Source: Candidatus Harrisonbacteria bacterium CG10_big_fil_rev_8_21_14_0_10_49_15 (GTDB lineage Bacteria > Patescibacteriota > Minisyncoccia > UBA6257 > 1-14-0-10-44-23). From it: a stretch of 37,162 nucleotides of DNA. A program made the translations under genes and the position numbers. The stretch spans positions 1-37,162 of the forward strand of contig PFBD01000025.1 of the NCBI GenBank assembly GCA_002773415.1, written 5' to 3'. Each line of letters opens with the position of its first letter. The first letter of the stretch is position 1. Of this stretch, positions 1-6,896 are shown piece after piece. Under the pieces are notes generated by a model. That model was not told the origin of the DNA and searched no databases. It was given only the letters and a program-made list of their open reading frames with translations.

Positions 1-1404
1 ATCCAAACGAGCCTTTTCCACGTTTAAGATCTTACCTCGAAGCGGCAGAATCGCCTGTGTCCGCCTGTCCCGTCCGGCCTTGGCCGAGCCGCCGGCAGAG
101 TCTCCCTCCACCAGGAACAACTCAGACTCCTCCGCGCTCCGACTACTGCAGTCGGCCAATTTGCCCGGCAAAGTCAGACCTTCTAAAATACCCTTACGCA
201 TCACCGTATCCCGCGCCGCCTTGGCCGCCTTTCTGGCCTTGGCAGACAACAAACACTTCTGCACAATACTGGCCGCGTCTTTACTACTGCGCTCTACAAA
301 ATTCTTCAGCGCCTCTGCCACTACACTCTCCACGGCTGTCCGTGCCTCCGGAGAACCAAGCCGACCCTTAGTCTGCCCTTCAAACTGCGGCTCCTGTAAC
401 TTCACGGAAATGACCGCGATCAAACCTTCTCGAATATCTTCACCGGTTAGGTTATCGTCTGACTCTTTGATATAGTTGTTAGAACGAGCATAGTCATTCA
501 AAGTTCGGGTCAGCGCGCTTCGAAAACCGGTAATGTGCATTCCGCCGTCTATGGTATACACATTATTCGCAAACCCCATCTCTTGGGTCTCGATATCATT
601 GTTGTAAACAAAAGCAACCTCCACCTGCACATTATCCGCCGTCTTTTCCACGTAAAAAACATCCTGCTGGATGGTCTCTGAGTCCGCGTTCAAGTACTTG
701 ATGAAAGACAAAAGTCCGCCGTCAAAATAAAAACCGTGATAAAACACCGGCGTCTCCCGATAATCAATCAGTTCAATGCGCACGCCCTTTGTCAAAAACG
801 CCTGACGCCGCAGATACTCAAGAATGAATCTTTTATCAAACTTGATAACTGCAAATATCTCCGGATCCGGCTCAAAAGTAATTTTCGTGCCTGTTTTTTT
901 GCTCGCGCTAACTTTTTTAACAGCGCCCTGTGGCTTACCACGCTTGTACTCCTGCACGTAGTACCCGCCTTCACGATGCACCTCTGCTTTTAGATACTGA
1001 CTCAAGGCGTTGACCACCGACACACCCACGCCGTGCAACCCTCCGGATACTTTATAACCCTCGCCACCAAACTTACCACCGGCGTGCAAAACCGTCAGCA
1101 CGGTCTCAAGCGTGGATTTTTTGGTGGTCCTATGCTTCTCCACCGGAATACCACGGCCGTCGTCAGTGATTGCGATTCGATTATCCGCAAATACCTCTAC
1201 GACAATATTCTTCGCGTACCCGGCCATGGCCTCATCGATCGCGTTATCCGCTATTTCTTTGATAAGGTGATGCACCCCGGCTGTATCCGTGGTACCAATA
1301 TACATACCCGGGCGCTTTCGCACCGGGTCTAAGCCCTCTAAGACAGTTATGTCTTTCGCACCATAACTGCCTTTCTTGACCTCTTTTTCAGCTGATTTTG
1401 CCAT
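1..1404 (-). CDS. gyrB: DNA gyrase subunit B, N-terminal part (cut by window edge)
   Basis: ATP-dependent type II topoisomerase subunit that introduces negative supercoils with GyrA. The 468 codons visible begin [12 protein letters not shown] and show the GHKL ATPase signatures in order: ADNAIDEA (about residue 50), DDGRGIP (about 80), [14 protein letters not shown] (about 120), the transducer motif QTKGRLGS (about 350) and the start of the TOPRIM domain, [10 protein letters not shown] (about 430). The reading frame is open to base 1, so the C-terminal part lies outside the window. The ATG at 1402-1404 is the natural start because the conserved text [17 protein letters not shown] follows shortly after. 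ParE is the alternative, but the overall text reads as GyrB. It is codirectional with the reverse transcriptase gene 90 bp upstream. Confidence 0.95.
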
Positions 1405-1494
1405 AGTTTTAAGCCCAAAATTAAAAGATGTCCCTAGCTGGGAATACCTCCATTCTAGCAAATCTAGACCCTAAAAACAAGCCAAGAATAGCGC

Positions 1495-2487
1495 TCAATA
1501 ACCAATCACTCGTCGCAACTTCCGCGTGTTGCCGTGAGAAAGCAATCCTAAATACGACGATATCATAGCTTCCTTTTTAGGCTGCTCCGCAAGTTTCCGC
1601 AACATCCTCCGTTTAGTCGCCGTCCGCAAAACTCGATGATCCGGAAAATGTACCCAACCCAGAAAATCCACACCAGAGGCAACGGTCTTTATAAACAACT
1701 TATTCGGATGCAGCTCTAATCGAAGGCGGTCGCCAAAAAACTCCTGAATCCGCGGAATCAAGTTTTCCAGCACTGCTCTATTTTCTGAAAGAAACGCAAA
1801 ATCATCCGCATACCGAATGTAATACTTTTCCTTCAGCTTATGCTTCACCCACTGATCAAATTCATTCATGTAAATATTCACCAGCAGCTGGCTAGTGAGG
1901 TTCCCAAGCGGCAACCCTTTATTCTCCCTTTCATAAAGGGAGCCTGCCTGCCGGACAGGCAGGTACGGCGAAGCCGGGAGGGATTTTTGGTTCGCTGTTC
2001 GGAATGACCCGACAACATTTTTCAGCAGCCCGAGAGTATCAGGATCCGCAATCTGCCTTTGCAATATTTCAATCAAGATCTCATGATCAATATTCGCGAA
2101 AAATTTCCGGATATCACACTTCAATACCCAGCAAGTGCGAGTGTTGTTCTTAGAAACTTTGCGCGCAAAAGCGCGAAAGCGATTGAGCGCCTTATGCGTG
2201 CCCTTGCCGAGCTGACAAGAGTACGAGTCATGAATAAATCTTTTTGAGAAATACGGATATAGAACTCTGTAGATGGCATGGTGGACCAACCTATCCCTGA
2301 CGCTAGCCTTGTGAATGTCCCTGGGCTTTGGGTCGTTTATCCTGAAATACTTGTAAAAACCATGGGTATAGATTTCCTTTTTCAACTCCTCATGTAAACT
2401 AAAGATATTATCCATTAACCGCAAGGAAAATTCTTGCACATCCTTTTTGCCTCGCTTGCCTTTAGTAAACTCCTGCCAGGCGAGCAA
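1495..2487 (-). CDS. DGR reverse transcriptase
   Basis: Error-prone reverse transcriptase of a diversity-generating retroelement; it copies TR RNA into cDNA with adenine-directed errors. Visible motifs: KCDIRKFF (catalytic Asp about 125), LGNLTSQ (194-200, the DGR-type version of the QGxxxSP motif of group II intron RTs), YADD (226-229), ELHPNK (258-263) and FLGW (275-278). There is no maturase or endonuclease domain, which argues against a group II intron. The only standard start in the present frame is a TTG at 2487, but homologous-looking text (IFNEIINVENLLLAW) continues upstream, so the true start is probably further out (see finding on the C7 run). Residues about 168-188 are an insertion made of a dispersed palindromic repeat. 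Avd, TR and VR lie directly upstream, confirming the DGR assignment. Confidence 0.95.
   Translation of the reverse strand: MLAWQEFTKGKRGKKDVQEFSLRLMDNIFSLHEELKKEIYTHGFYKYFRINDPKPRDIHKASVRDRLVHHAIYRVLYPYFSKRFIHDSYSCQLGKGTHKALNRFRAFARKVSKNNTRTCWVLKCDIRKFFANIDHEILIEILQRQIADPDTLGLLKNVVGSFRTANQKSLPASPYLPVRQAGSLYERENKGLPLGNLTSQLLVNIYMNEFDQWVKHKLKEKYYIRYADDFAFLSENRAVLENLIPRIQEFFGDRLRLELHPNKLFIKTVASGVDFLGWVHFPDHRVLRTATKRRMLRKLAEQPKKEAMISSYLGLLSHGNTRKLRRVIGY
1943..1963. repeat. Palindromic micro-repeat inside the RT gene
   Basis: Arms CCTGCCTG and CAGGCAGG separated by 5 nt. Near-identical 20-bp palindromes occur at 5535-5554 and 15406-15425. Here it is translated in frame (LPVRQAG) between RT motifs A and the LGNLTSQ motif, in a stretch that most DGR RTs do not have. 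Confidence 0.8.
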
Positions 2488-2575
2488 CAGATTTTCAACA
2501 TTAATTATTTCATTAAAAATATGAGCCAGTCCCTTTTCGAGAACAAACCCCTTAAAACGCCCCCCCGTTGGAAAT

Positions 2576-2932
2576 TTGAGTATTTTGCAACATCTTGTCG
2601 CGGTTTACAAATTATGGTTTGAGTTAAAACAGCACCTCCGGAAGTCAGCCAAGTACACGCTGGGCGAGAAAATAGACAACTTGTTCATAGAAACCCTGGA
2701 GCTAATCTTCCGAGCCCAATACGCGCCCCAAGAACGTACACTCCCTATCTTAGAAGAAGCCAATACCAAGTTTGATCTGCTCAAGTTTTTCCTCATGACC
2801 CTTTGGGAAACTAAAGGTATTGAGACCAAACACTATGTCCTGCTCTCTGAAAAACTAGAGACGATAGGCAAGATGCTCGGCGGATGGCTGCGGCGTTTTA
2901 CCGCCGCAGCCCCACCTAACACGAAGAAGTAG
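2576..2932 (+). CDS. avd: Avd, DGR accessory variability determinant (four-helix bundle)
   Basis: Small basic helical protein that binds the RT and TR RNA in DGRs and is needed for mutagenic homing. The 118 residues carry the family text YTLGEKIDNLF (about 27-37), LPILEEANTKFDLLKFFL (about 57-74) and the C-terminal KLETIGKMLGGW. It belongs to the bAvd / 23S rRNA intervening-sequence-protein-like family. The frame has only a TTG start at 2576; an ATG at 2521 lies one frame away and would join it if a C7 run (2560-2566) had one base fewer. It is unusual in being on the strand opposite to the RT, TR and target, and its TAG stop (2930-2932) lies inside the TR end. Family assignment is firm; start and expression are uncertain. 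Confidence 0.88.
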   Translation: MSILQHLVAVYKLWFELKQHLRKSAKYTLGEKIDNLFIETLELIFRAQYAPQERTLPILEEANTKFDLLKFFLMTLWETKGIETKHYVLLSEKLETIGKMLGGWLRRFTAAAPPNTKK

Positions 2933-3064
2933 TTGCGGCAAAGAAGCGCCTCGTTGCCATTCGTCTGATTGCTCACCCAGTTGTAGTTCTGGATCCAGCG
3001 CTGGTTGTCGTCGTTCCAGTTCCAGTTGCGAGCGTACGGCTTCTCGTCCTCGTTCGGCCAGAGA
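2926..3064 (-). repeat. DGR template repeat (TR)
   Basis: About 139 bp aligning without gaps to 3482-3620 (constant offset of 556). Between 2933 and 3064 there are 14 mismatches, at 2954, 2964, 2970, 2982, 2984, 2988, 3008, 3014, 3020, 3021, 3026, 3047, 3050 and 3053. On the minus (sense) strand all 14 are A in the TR. No other base differs in that span. Read in the VR frame the TR is rich in AAC/AAT codons (N-W-N-W-N-D-D-N), the usual design that allows wide amino-acid change. The end at 2926-2932 has two G/C differences from the VR (2929, 2932), as expected for IMH*. The remaining intergenic sequence 3065-3366 shows a GCGCTAGCGC palindrome near 3177 but no gene that I can support. Confidence 0.95.
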
Positions 3065-3366
3065 ATGTATCACGCGCCGTCCAATCCACCACCCGTAGTC
3101 CGCGCGATTGACGGACTTCGGACTGTATCTAATTCCGCATATCATTCAGCAGGATGACCTACTGGATGTATAATGCGCTAGCGCGCGATACCAAGTAGTT
3201 CTATCGTGTATAAAGTATATAGCTCGACGCTCGCCAAAAGTTACAAAACCCGGGGCGACTCTGCGTACCATATCTTTAGAGTTCGGCCACGCGAAGCCTC
3301 ATTTGTTTTTCCAAACGAAACCGCACGTCGTCACCTACTATCCGCTTCAAAGTATATCAAAACGTG

Positions 3367-3399
3367 AACGACCCTGACAGTGCTTCTGTCAGGGTCGTT
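3367..3399 (-). terminator. Hairpin downstream of the DGR target gene
   Basis: Perfect 14-bp stem (AACGACCCTGACAG / CTGTCAGGGTCGTT) with a 5-nt loop, 85 nt after the target stop codon; on the minus strand it is followed by CACGTTTTG. Best read as a terminator for the target gene. Some DGRs have a hairpin just after the VR that aids homing, but here it lies about 80 nt away. A shorter hairpin, GGTCC-GAG-GGACC, lies nearer at 3409-3421. Confidence 0.65.
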
Positions 3400-3481
3400 G
3401 GATTGCGTGGTCCGAGGGACCAAGGGTCCAAGAATCCCAAGAAAATTCAAGGGAACCCGAAAACCCAAGGCCCCAGAGACC

Positions 3482-3620
3482 GAACTACTTGCGGCAAAGA
3501 AGCGCCTCGCTGCCATTCGCCTGATCGCTCACCCAGTAGCAGTCCTGGATCCAGCGCTGGTTGCCGTCGCTCCAGCCCCAGCTGCGAGCGTACGGCTTCT
3601 CGACCCCGATCGGCCAGAGA
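3482..3620 (-). repeat. DGR variable repeat (VR)
   Basis: C-terminal coding end of the gene 3485-3958. It matches the TR except at TR adenines: 11 read A to G and 3 read A to T in sense orientation. The changes alter 13 residues, for example N-E-D to I-G-V, N-W-N-W-N to S-W-G-W-S, N-Y-N to D-C-Y. The invariant tail GCGCTTCTTTGCCGC is followed by AAG-TAG, where the TR has AAC-TAC; this is the putative IMH and supplies the stop codon. Confidence 0.95.
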
Positions 3621-3958
3621 GTGGCCGAAAAGAGCCACCACTGCCGCCAGGTGGCGGGGATGGCGATCTGGCCCGAGAAGAGCCAGATCAGCCGCCGATC
3701 GCCGCAGGACTCCCTGCCCTCGTCGAGCAGGCGCTGAATGCCCTGCTCGCGGGTCCAGTCGGCCGGGTCGGCGGCGCGACGGAGCGGCACAGGCTCGAAC
3801 TCGTTCAGGTCGAACTCGCCGTCACCCTCTCCTGCAATGTCGCGCAGGAGGGCAGAGGTGCACCCCTCAAATAGGGGTGACAACGCAGGGCCTCCATCGG
3901 CCAGGCCGACACGCCGGGGAACGAGGACCGCGAAGGTCCTGGTGGGGGTCGTGGACAT
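3485..3958 (-). CDS. DGR target (variable) protein
   Basis: The 157-residue product whose last 40 or so residues are rewritten by the DGR. The VR segment WPIGVEKPYARSWGWSDG onward is rich in W, Y, G and S, as expected of a ligand-binding surface, and resembles the tail of C-type-lectin-like DGR targets in style only; I do not recognise the N-terminal 110 residues. There is no signal peptide, lipobox or membrane segment, so it may be cytoplasmic or exported by an unseen route. The start is well supported: AGAGGAG lies 5 nt before the ATG, and a promoter is present at 4127-4161. The gene is clearly richer in G+C than its neighbours (43 of 60 bases at 3701-3760), suggesting transfer with the DGR. 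Confidence 0.9.
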   Translation of the reverse strand: MSTTPTRTFAVLVPRRVGLADGGPALSPLFEGCTSALLRDIAGEGDGEFDLNEFEPVPLRRAADPADWTREQGIQRLLDEGRESCGDRRLIWLFSGQIAIPATWRQWWLFSATLWPIGVEKPYARSWGWSDGNQRWIQDCYWVSDQANGSEALLCRK

Positions 3959-4024
3959 GATACACTCCTCTGATCTGCTTTTTGCCTCGCAACGAGCGAA
4001 ACTTTAGGCAGATTTTGGCTAGAA

Positions 4025-4097
4025 TTAGCCGCACAAATCAAACACCAGGATTCTTCGCTTACGCTCAGAATGACAAGCGCCTCATTTGTACGGCTAA
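4025..4097. repeat. Inverted repeat with dispersed element in the target-gene leader
   Basis: TTAGCCGCACAAAT (4025-4038) and ATTTGTACGGCTAA (4084-4097) are inverted copies with one mismatch. Between them lies a widespread type of short dispersed repeat (minus strand reads TGTCATTCTGAGCG then GAAGAATC, about 4048-4076). Relatives of such a bacterial repeat with a GGGAATGACA end occur at 7261-7335 and 35402-35428. Here it would fold in the 5' leader of the DGR target mRNA. Confidence 0.65.
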
Positions 4098-4126
4098 AAC
4101 TCGCAAATAATCATTTCAAGTTACTT

Positions 4127-4161
4127 ATTATAGCATAGCACACTTTATGCTCATTTGTCAA
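4127..4161 (-). promoter_or_regulatory. Promoter of the DGR target gene
   Basis: On the minus strand: perfect -35 TTGACA (4156-4161), then TATGCT with an 18-nt spacer (4132-4137), overlapping an extended -10 TGCTATAAT (4127 onward). The resulting leader is roughly 165 nt and contains the inverted repeat at 4025-4097. Consensus match only; the transcription start is not shown by the sequence. Confidence 0.65.
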
Positions 4162-4163
4162 GA

Positions 4164-4177
4164 GCCCGAAAACGGGC
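4164..4177 (-). terminator. Possible weak terminator after the lamin-tail/HhH gene
   Basis: GCCCG-AAAA-CGGGC hairpin 30 nt past the stop codon. The run of T that should follow on the minus strand is poor (TCTTGAC), so it may be inefficient or merely structural; the next promoter starts immediately after it. Confidence 0.4.
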
Positions 4178-4206
4178 CTATTCCCAGACTAATTGGGACT
4201 AACTTG

Positions 4207-6664: not shown

Positions 6665-6896
6665 GGAATGGGGCGCTGGCAAAAACGGCGGGATGCTCAT
6701 AATTCTAATTGCTCGTATACTCGCAATTACTAAAAAATATTAGGTATGGCTGCCCCGCGAGATAGCGCTTCGCTCATCTCACGGGATGCTCATAGTTGTA
6801 CCTAAATTTTAAAAAAATAAACATTGGGTAATTAGGAATGGCGCCCCGCCTAAAACGGCGGGATGCTCATAATTCTAATTGCTCGTATACTCGCAA
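6665..6896 (+). repeat. Three-unit repeated hairpin leader upstream of rpmA
   Basis: The 45 bases at 6682-6726 recur exactly at 6852-6896 (starting AAAACGGCGGGATGCTCATA). A third, diverged unit at 6743-6802 shares GGNATGG, CCCCGC and CGGGATGCTCATA. Each unit can form a hairpin with the CCCGCC/GGCGGG or CCCG..CGGG arms. The last copy ends 6 nt before the rpmA start codon, so the tract forms the leader and possible promoter region of rpmA. No CRISPR features: only two exact copies, with unlike spacing. Confidence 0.75.

Follow-up and report, generated by a model that had tools for sequence, protein, structure and literature searches.

Repeat-tract contingency loci are phase-variable genes in bacteria such as Neisseria, Haemophilus and Campylobacter. 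Their short repeats have unit lengths that are not multiples of three and lie at or near the 5' end of the coding sequence, and ON and OFF states are mixed across genomes. These properties are shared by the locus described here, which also resembles the diversity-generating retroelement (DGR) of Bordetella phage BPP-1 (mtd/avd/TR/brt). The two have in common a reverse transcriptase (RT), the accessory protein Avd, a template repeat (TR), a variable repeat (VR) at the end of the target gene, and TR/VR differences at adenines only. In BPP-1, avd, TR and brt form one operon, avd is required for retrohoming, and the system relies on a structured spacer located 3' of the TR (PMC12875486). An earlier note on the present DNA remarked that DGRs are known in CPR lineages, and a Patescibacteria-restricted DGR clade (clade 2) has indeed been published (Roux et al. 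2021, PMC8144416). The activity of clade 2 DGRs was reported to be lower than average, and the authors left the cause between control of RT activity and selection. The main text of that study makes no mention of Avd, a frameshift or a promoter, and "phase" appears there only in alternating phases of selection (PMC8144416).

We analysed a stretch of 37,162 nucleotides (hereafter, the window; contig PFBD01000025.1, positions 1 to 37,162 of the forward strand) from Candidatus Harrisonbacteria bacterium CG10_big_fil_rev_8_21_14_0_10_49_15, whose genome assembly comprises 884 kb in 34 contigs. The features of the DGR cassette in the window are as follows.

1495 to about 2544, minus strand: DGR reverse transcriptase (Pfam RVT_1, 2.3e-26; PHROG 1423, 2e-108).
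1921 to 1990, minus strand: in-frame RT insert (about SLPASPYLPVRQAGSLYEREN) with a palindromic repeat, in the loop before GLPLGN; missing from the two paralogous RTs.
2521 to 2523, plus strand: ATG upstream of the tract for Avd; Avd is in frame with it only at tract +2 or -1 (predicted MSQSLFENKPLK...).
2560 to 2566, plus strand: tract of C7, or G7 as read on the RT strand, where the 5' ends of the divergent avd and RT genes overlap; short form of a conserved putative slippage tract.
2576 to 2932, plus strand: Avd (accessory variability determinant), on the strand opposite to RT and TR; its stop codon abuts the TR.
2591 to 2593, minus strand: ATG upstream of the tract for RT; RT is in frame with it only at tract +2 or -1.
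2933 to 3064, minus strand: TR, located by repeat search; the homology reaches 2926 to 3067.
3054 to 3211, minus strand: predicted conserved structured RNA element, a three-way junction directly 5' of the TR (covariance model R1, 66.3 bits).
3212 to 3470, minus strand: rest of the VR-TR leader, with two hairpins (GGUUACGGCUU-like loops in relatives), a terminator-like hairpin of the target gene and a weak promoter-like box.
3485 to 3958, minus strand: target protein of 157 aa, ending in the VR; 30-31% identical to the targets of loci L004 and L144.
3489 to 3620, minus strand: VR, the 3' end of the target gene, located by repeat search.

The cassette is a genuine DGR. The core residues of the RT extend from ENLLLAW to RRVIGY and include GLPLGNLTSQ and RYADD. 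Its top PDB match was 8ub7 (6e-40), which we take to be the BPP-1 DGR RT complex; this match, the GLPLGNLTSQ motif and the hit to PHROG 1423 assign the RT to the DGR type. Avd matched Pfam bAvd (7.2e-12, over the cut-off) and PHROG 3206 Avd (4.5e-19), and its score against NCBIfam DivGenRetAVD (7.5e-19, 68 bits) was below the cut-off of 80. Searches with Pfam and other profiles gave no family or domain match for the target protein, and its AlphaFold model, built from 3 sequences only, had a mean pLDDT of 36.6, which is too low to judge whether the protein has the C-type lectin fold of DGR variable proteins. A GEGxGxFDL..EP motif with no Pfam match lies N-terminal to the VR in the targets of the window (3485-3958), L004 (L004:3541-4158) and L144 (L144:914-1531). 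The neighbours of the cassette are gyrB, recognised by sequence, on one side and a helix-hairpin-helix protein with a lamin tail domain on the other. At 6665-6896, the window also holds two 62-nt direct repeats (92% identical, 170 nt apart) that are unrelated to the DGR.

The TR and VR were compared by an ungapped repeat search, which aligned 2926-3067 with 3482-3623 at 88% identity over 142 nt. Within the 132-nt core (TR 2933-3064, VR 3489-3620) there were 14 mismatches, and each was at an adenine of the TR sense (minus) strand. The substitutions from TR to VR were 11 A>G and 3 A>T, among 38 TR adenines, and the probability of 14 of 14 mismatches falling at adenine by chance is 3.5e-9 (about 4e-9). 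Beyond the core, C>G changes turn AACTAC of the TR into AAGTAG of the VR, the stop codon of the target. These results confirm the adenine-only differences that the earlier note had counted and support the mutagenic homing that it had proposed. Among 114 related loci, 1890 of 1952 TR/VR mismatches were at A, a value that is supporting only because the search favours A mismatches, unlike the window's own count, which came from the unbiased repeat search. The DGR had also been described as complete. RT, Avd, TR, VR and target are all present; however, RT and Avd are out of frame with the upstream ATGs at the assembled tract length.

Three such RTs (in the window, L004 and L005) occur in the genome, each with its own Avd and TR. 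The TR and VR of the L004 paralog form a clean pair, and all 13 of their differences are at A. In L005, a run of N occupies the expected VR position inside the target gene (L005:10435-10474), perhaps a gap left by the assembly at a hypervariable site, perhaps the result of masking. Among 380 genomes sampled from the phylum, 130 have a related RT, and where public records name the relatives, they are almost always Patescibacteria. Altogether, 130 of the 148 distinct related loci, essentially all of them from Patescibacteria, have the order target - leader - TR - antisense Avd - RT. Avd is on the RT strand in 9 loci, whose RTs are distant (at most 43% identity). The antisense orientation is therefore a trait of the clade and not a peculiarity of the window, and with three copies in this genome, the earlier note's view of the locus and its orientation as distinct is not supported. 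Antisense Avd may possibly have been mentioned in print before. A Chromatiaceae DGR (L036:5001-5912), whose RT shares 36% identity, also has its parts in this order with Avd antisense and lacks a tract; the VR of this DGR falls within a large NTPase/FGE-like protein. Of two IMG/VR contigs, L166 carries the same cassette with a G11 tract (3950-3962) and L165 has no tract.

Where the divergent avd and RT 5' ends overlap, a run of 7-15 G (RT strand) or a (GA)n repeat is present in almost all relatives. In the first locus set, G/C runs of at least 8 were found 28 times at the junction and once in 336 kb elsewhere. With strict thresholds applied to 129 loci, the 11.6 kb of junction sequence contained 94 repeats and the 524 kb outside it contained 2, an enrichment of about 2000-fold; the G7 of the window is below the threshold used for this count. 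The repeat units in the 129 loci were 1, 2, 4 or 5 nt long, and none was of 3 or 6 nt. (GT)n, (ATTG)7, (TTGG)11 and (TGTCC)8 were found at the same junction position, each in single lineages. Given that the repeat type changed at least 23 times on the RT tree, it is slipperiness that is conserved and not a particular sequence. Furthermore, L047, L087 and L051, which are 81-87% identical, have two TTGG-like units, (ATTG)7 and (TTGG)11 at one spot, indicating rapid tract turnover. In about one fifth of the antisense-Avd loci, no tract was seen. Runs of N numbered 6 in 11.6 kb of junction versus 10 in 645 kb, which suggests length variation that assembly did not resolve, and part of these runs could be operator masking instead of assembly gaps. 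As in contingency loci, the repeat unit is not divisible by three and lies in the translated 5' end or the gene body, the tract of the window being a short one.

We then considered the reading frames across the tract. For Avd, a single tract class (modulo three) brings an upstream ATG into frame in 79 of 92 loci. The tract as assembled fell in this Avd-opening class in 21 of the 79 (ON) and outside it in 58 (OFF), on the basis of consensus lengths from metagenome assemblies, which can be wrong. In 43 of the 92 loci, the Avd frame at the observed length contained none of the start codons ATG, GTG and TTG. An in-frame ATG for Avd is present in 28 of the 31 loci in which no tract was scored at first, and the remaining 3 hold (TG)n, (GT)n or (TGTCC)n repeats. 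The RT has its own ATG after the tract in 49 of the 92 loci, and therefore only Avd would switch there. Where the RT has no such ATG, RT and Avd open at the same tract length in 23 of 25 loci (one third expected; p=1.5e-9). The control loci, whose RT does have its own ATG after the tract, agreed in 3 cases and disagreed in 10, and geometry was rejected as the cause of the agreement on this ground. Thus, a single tract appears to open two divergent genes together. Across related genomes, one per species, ON and OFF states are mixed, and the RT tree shows 19 state changes.

The window (G7), L004 (G11) and L005 ((AG)10) all read OFF in the assembly. L004 opens at +1 and L005 with one more unit, and in the window the RT has no ATG, GTG or TTG ahead of its conserved core at the assembled length. 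A TTG just after the tract, at 2576 in the window and also in L004 and L005, could start a nearly full-length Avd; because of this codon, the OFF state of the window is likely rather than proven. In L004, a TTG is present for RT as well. The VRs are equally diverged in the two states, with 54% of TR adenines changed in OFF cassettes and 53% in ON cassettes. OFF cassettes have therefore been active.

A repeat within a loop of the RT itself was found in some antisense-Avd loci without a junction tract and in some DGRs of Patescibacteria in which Avd and RT share a strand. The N- and C-terminal pieces of the RT are in different frames across a (GA)n, (CT)n or G10-12 tract in 13 loci, and the frame is continuous in 8 others, numbers that do not give a population ratio because these loci were partly chosen for truncated RT hits. 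Judged from these reading frames, the choice of start codon cannot explain the RT-internal tracts. The insert at 1921-1990 in the window RT, with a palindromic CCTGCCTGCCGG-CAGGCAGG repeat (palindrome at 1943-1963), occupies the loop that holds the putative slippage tracts in other RTs.

The interval between VR and TR is about 260-450 nt of conserved non-coding sequence. Its TR-proximal part is the structured RNA element. Across 43 sequences, compensatory changes occur at 20 of the 23 pairs of this element. Pairing holds in 95.2% of cells versus 73.2% after shuffling, with covariation scores of 0.748 and 0.287, respectively. In the genome, the covariance model hit three places and no others, each next to one of the DGRs; the searched loci whose Avd shares the RT strand gave no hit. 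No Rfam family matched positions 1400-4200 at E<=1. In contrast to BPP-1, covariation in this clade is 5' of the TR, and the 114 aligned 3' flanks of the TR gave no consensus structure and no 3' spacer structure. The 5' RNA domain may recruit RT-Avd, or it may halt cDNA synthesis at the boundary of the TR. Ahead of the leader, a TGNTATAAT box resembling a promoter was only weakly enriched (34 loci versus 14 expected), and we do not claim it as a promoter. The mechanism in the earlier note stands; what it missed was the out-of-frame repeat tract, the structured RNA before the TR and the two other cassettes.

We consider it very likely that the window holds a DGR of a Patescibacterial clade that is phase variable through slipped-strand changes in tract length. 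According to this proposal, RT and Avd would reverse-transcribe a template RNA carrying the TR and miscopy its adenines, and the resulting cDNA would overwrite the VR at the end of the target gene. A tract with a unit not divisible by three, either in the overlapping divergent avd/RT 5' ends or in the loop inside the RT, would change in length by replication slippage, moving Avd, and in many loci RT too, into frame or out of it, so that retrohoming would be active in some cells and silent in others. The tracts would slip within populations, and the OFF state would mean no retrohoming.

The same cassette could instead be an ordinary constitutive DGR, with translation of Avd and RT beginning beyond the tract, at rare or non-ATG codons, and the tract itself left untranslated. 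The TTG three nucleotides before the Avd core in the window, L004 and L005 is in favour of this, and an irrelevant upstream ATG would also score as ON in about 1 in 3 loci. However, no ATG, GTG or TTG is available for Avd in the 43 loci mentioned above, relatives without a tract use the upstream ATG, and the frames of RT and Avd agree in 23 of 25 loci. Untranslated junction tracts would also leave the tracts inside the RT unexplained, and we regard this explanation as quite unlikely.

We find it very unlikely that the tract serves as a recoding site, where RNA polymerase slippage or ribosomal frameshifting yields a fixed in-frame fraction at any genomic length. Long G runs promote transcriptional slippage, and the out-of-frame cassettes stay intact and diversified, which are points in its favour. 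However, the di-, tetra- and pentanucleotide repeats at the same place fit DNA replication slippage better than transcriptional slippage. That OFF cassettes are pseudogenes or assembly errors seems extremely improbable. Homopolymers are error-prone in sequencing and assembly, but the reading frames are intact on either side of the tracts, the roughly 2000-fold repeat enrichment is at one place, (GA)n units are untypical of homopolymer errors, and ON and OFF cassettes do not differ in VR divergence. Replication slippage at a phase-variable DGR is thus the explanation that we prefer.

As a DGR, the cassette is a new member of a known clade; we liken it to clade 2 of Roux et al. by host group and by small targets without recognisable domains. 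It differs from the BPP-1 DGR in that avd is antisense, between TR and RT, and a putative slippage tract is present. It differs from contingency loci in that the gene being switched is itself a mutator with a defined target, and in that two overlapping, divergent genes can share one tract and open at the same length of it. Our literature search found no report linking a DGR to slipped-strand mispairing or repeat-tract phase variation, and none of a structured RNA domain 5' of the TR. As far as the literature was searched, the slippage-switched DGR is an undescribed variant spread through the phylum. We lean towards a Patescibacteria-wide reading, in which a heritable and reversible slippage switch would act on DGR hypermutation, often on RT and Avd via one shared tract, and the structured domain of the template RNA 5' of the TR may make recognition, or the stopping or priming of cDNA synthesis, different from the BPP-1 model.

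The RNA element provides a sequence handle for finding template RNAs and probing template recognition by DGRs. For metagenome reads, the prediction is that tract lengths vary and that VR diversity tracks ON alleles. DGR retrohoming and repeat-tract phase variation would here be joined in one device, a switch on a mutator, and such a switch could help explain the lower activity of clade 2 DGRs in population surveys (PMC8144416).
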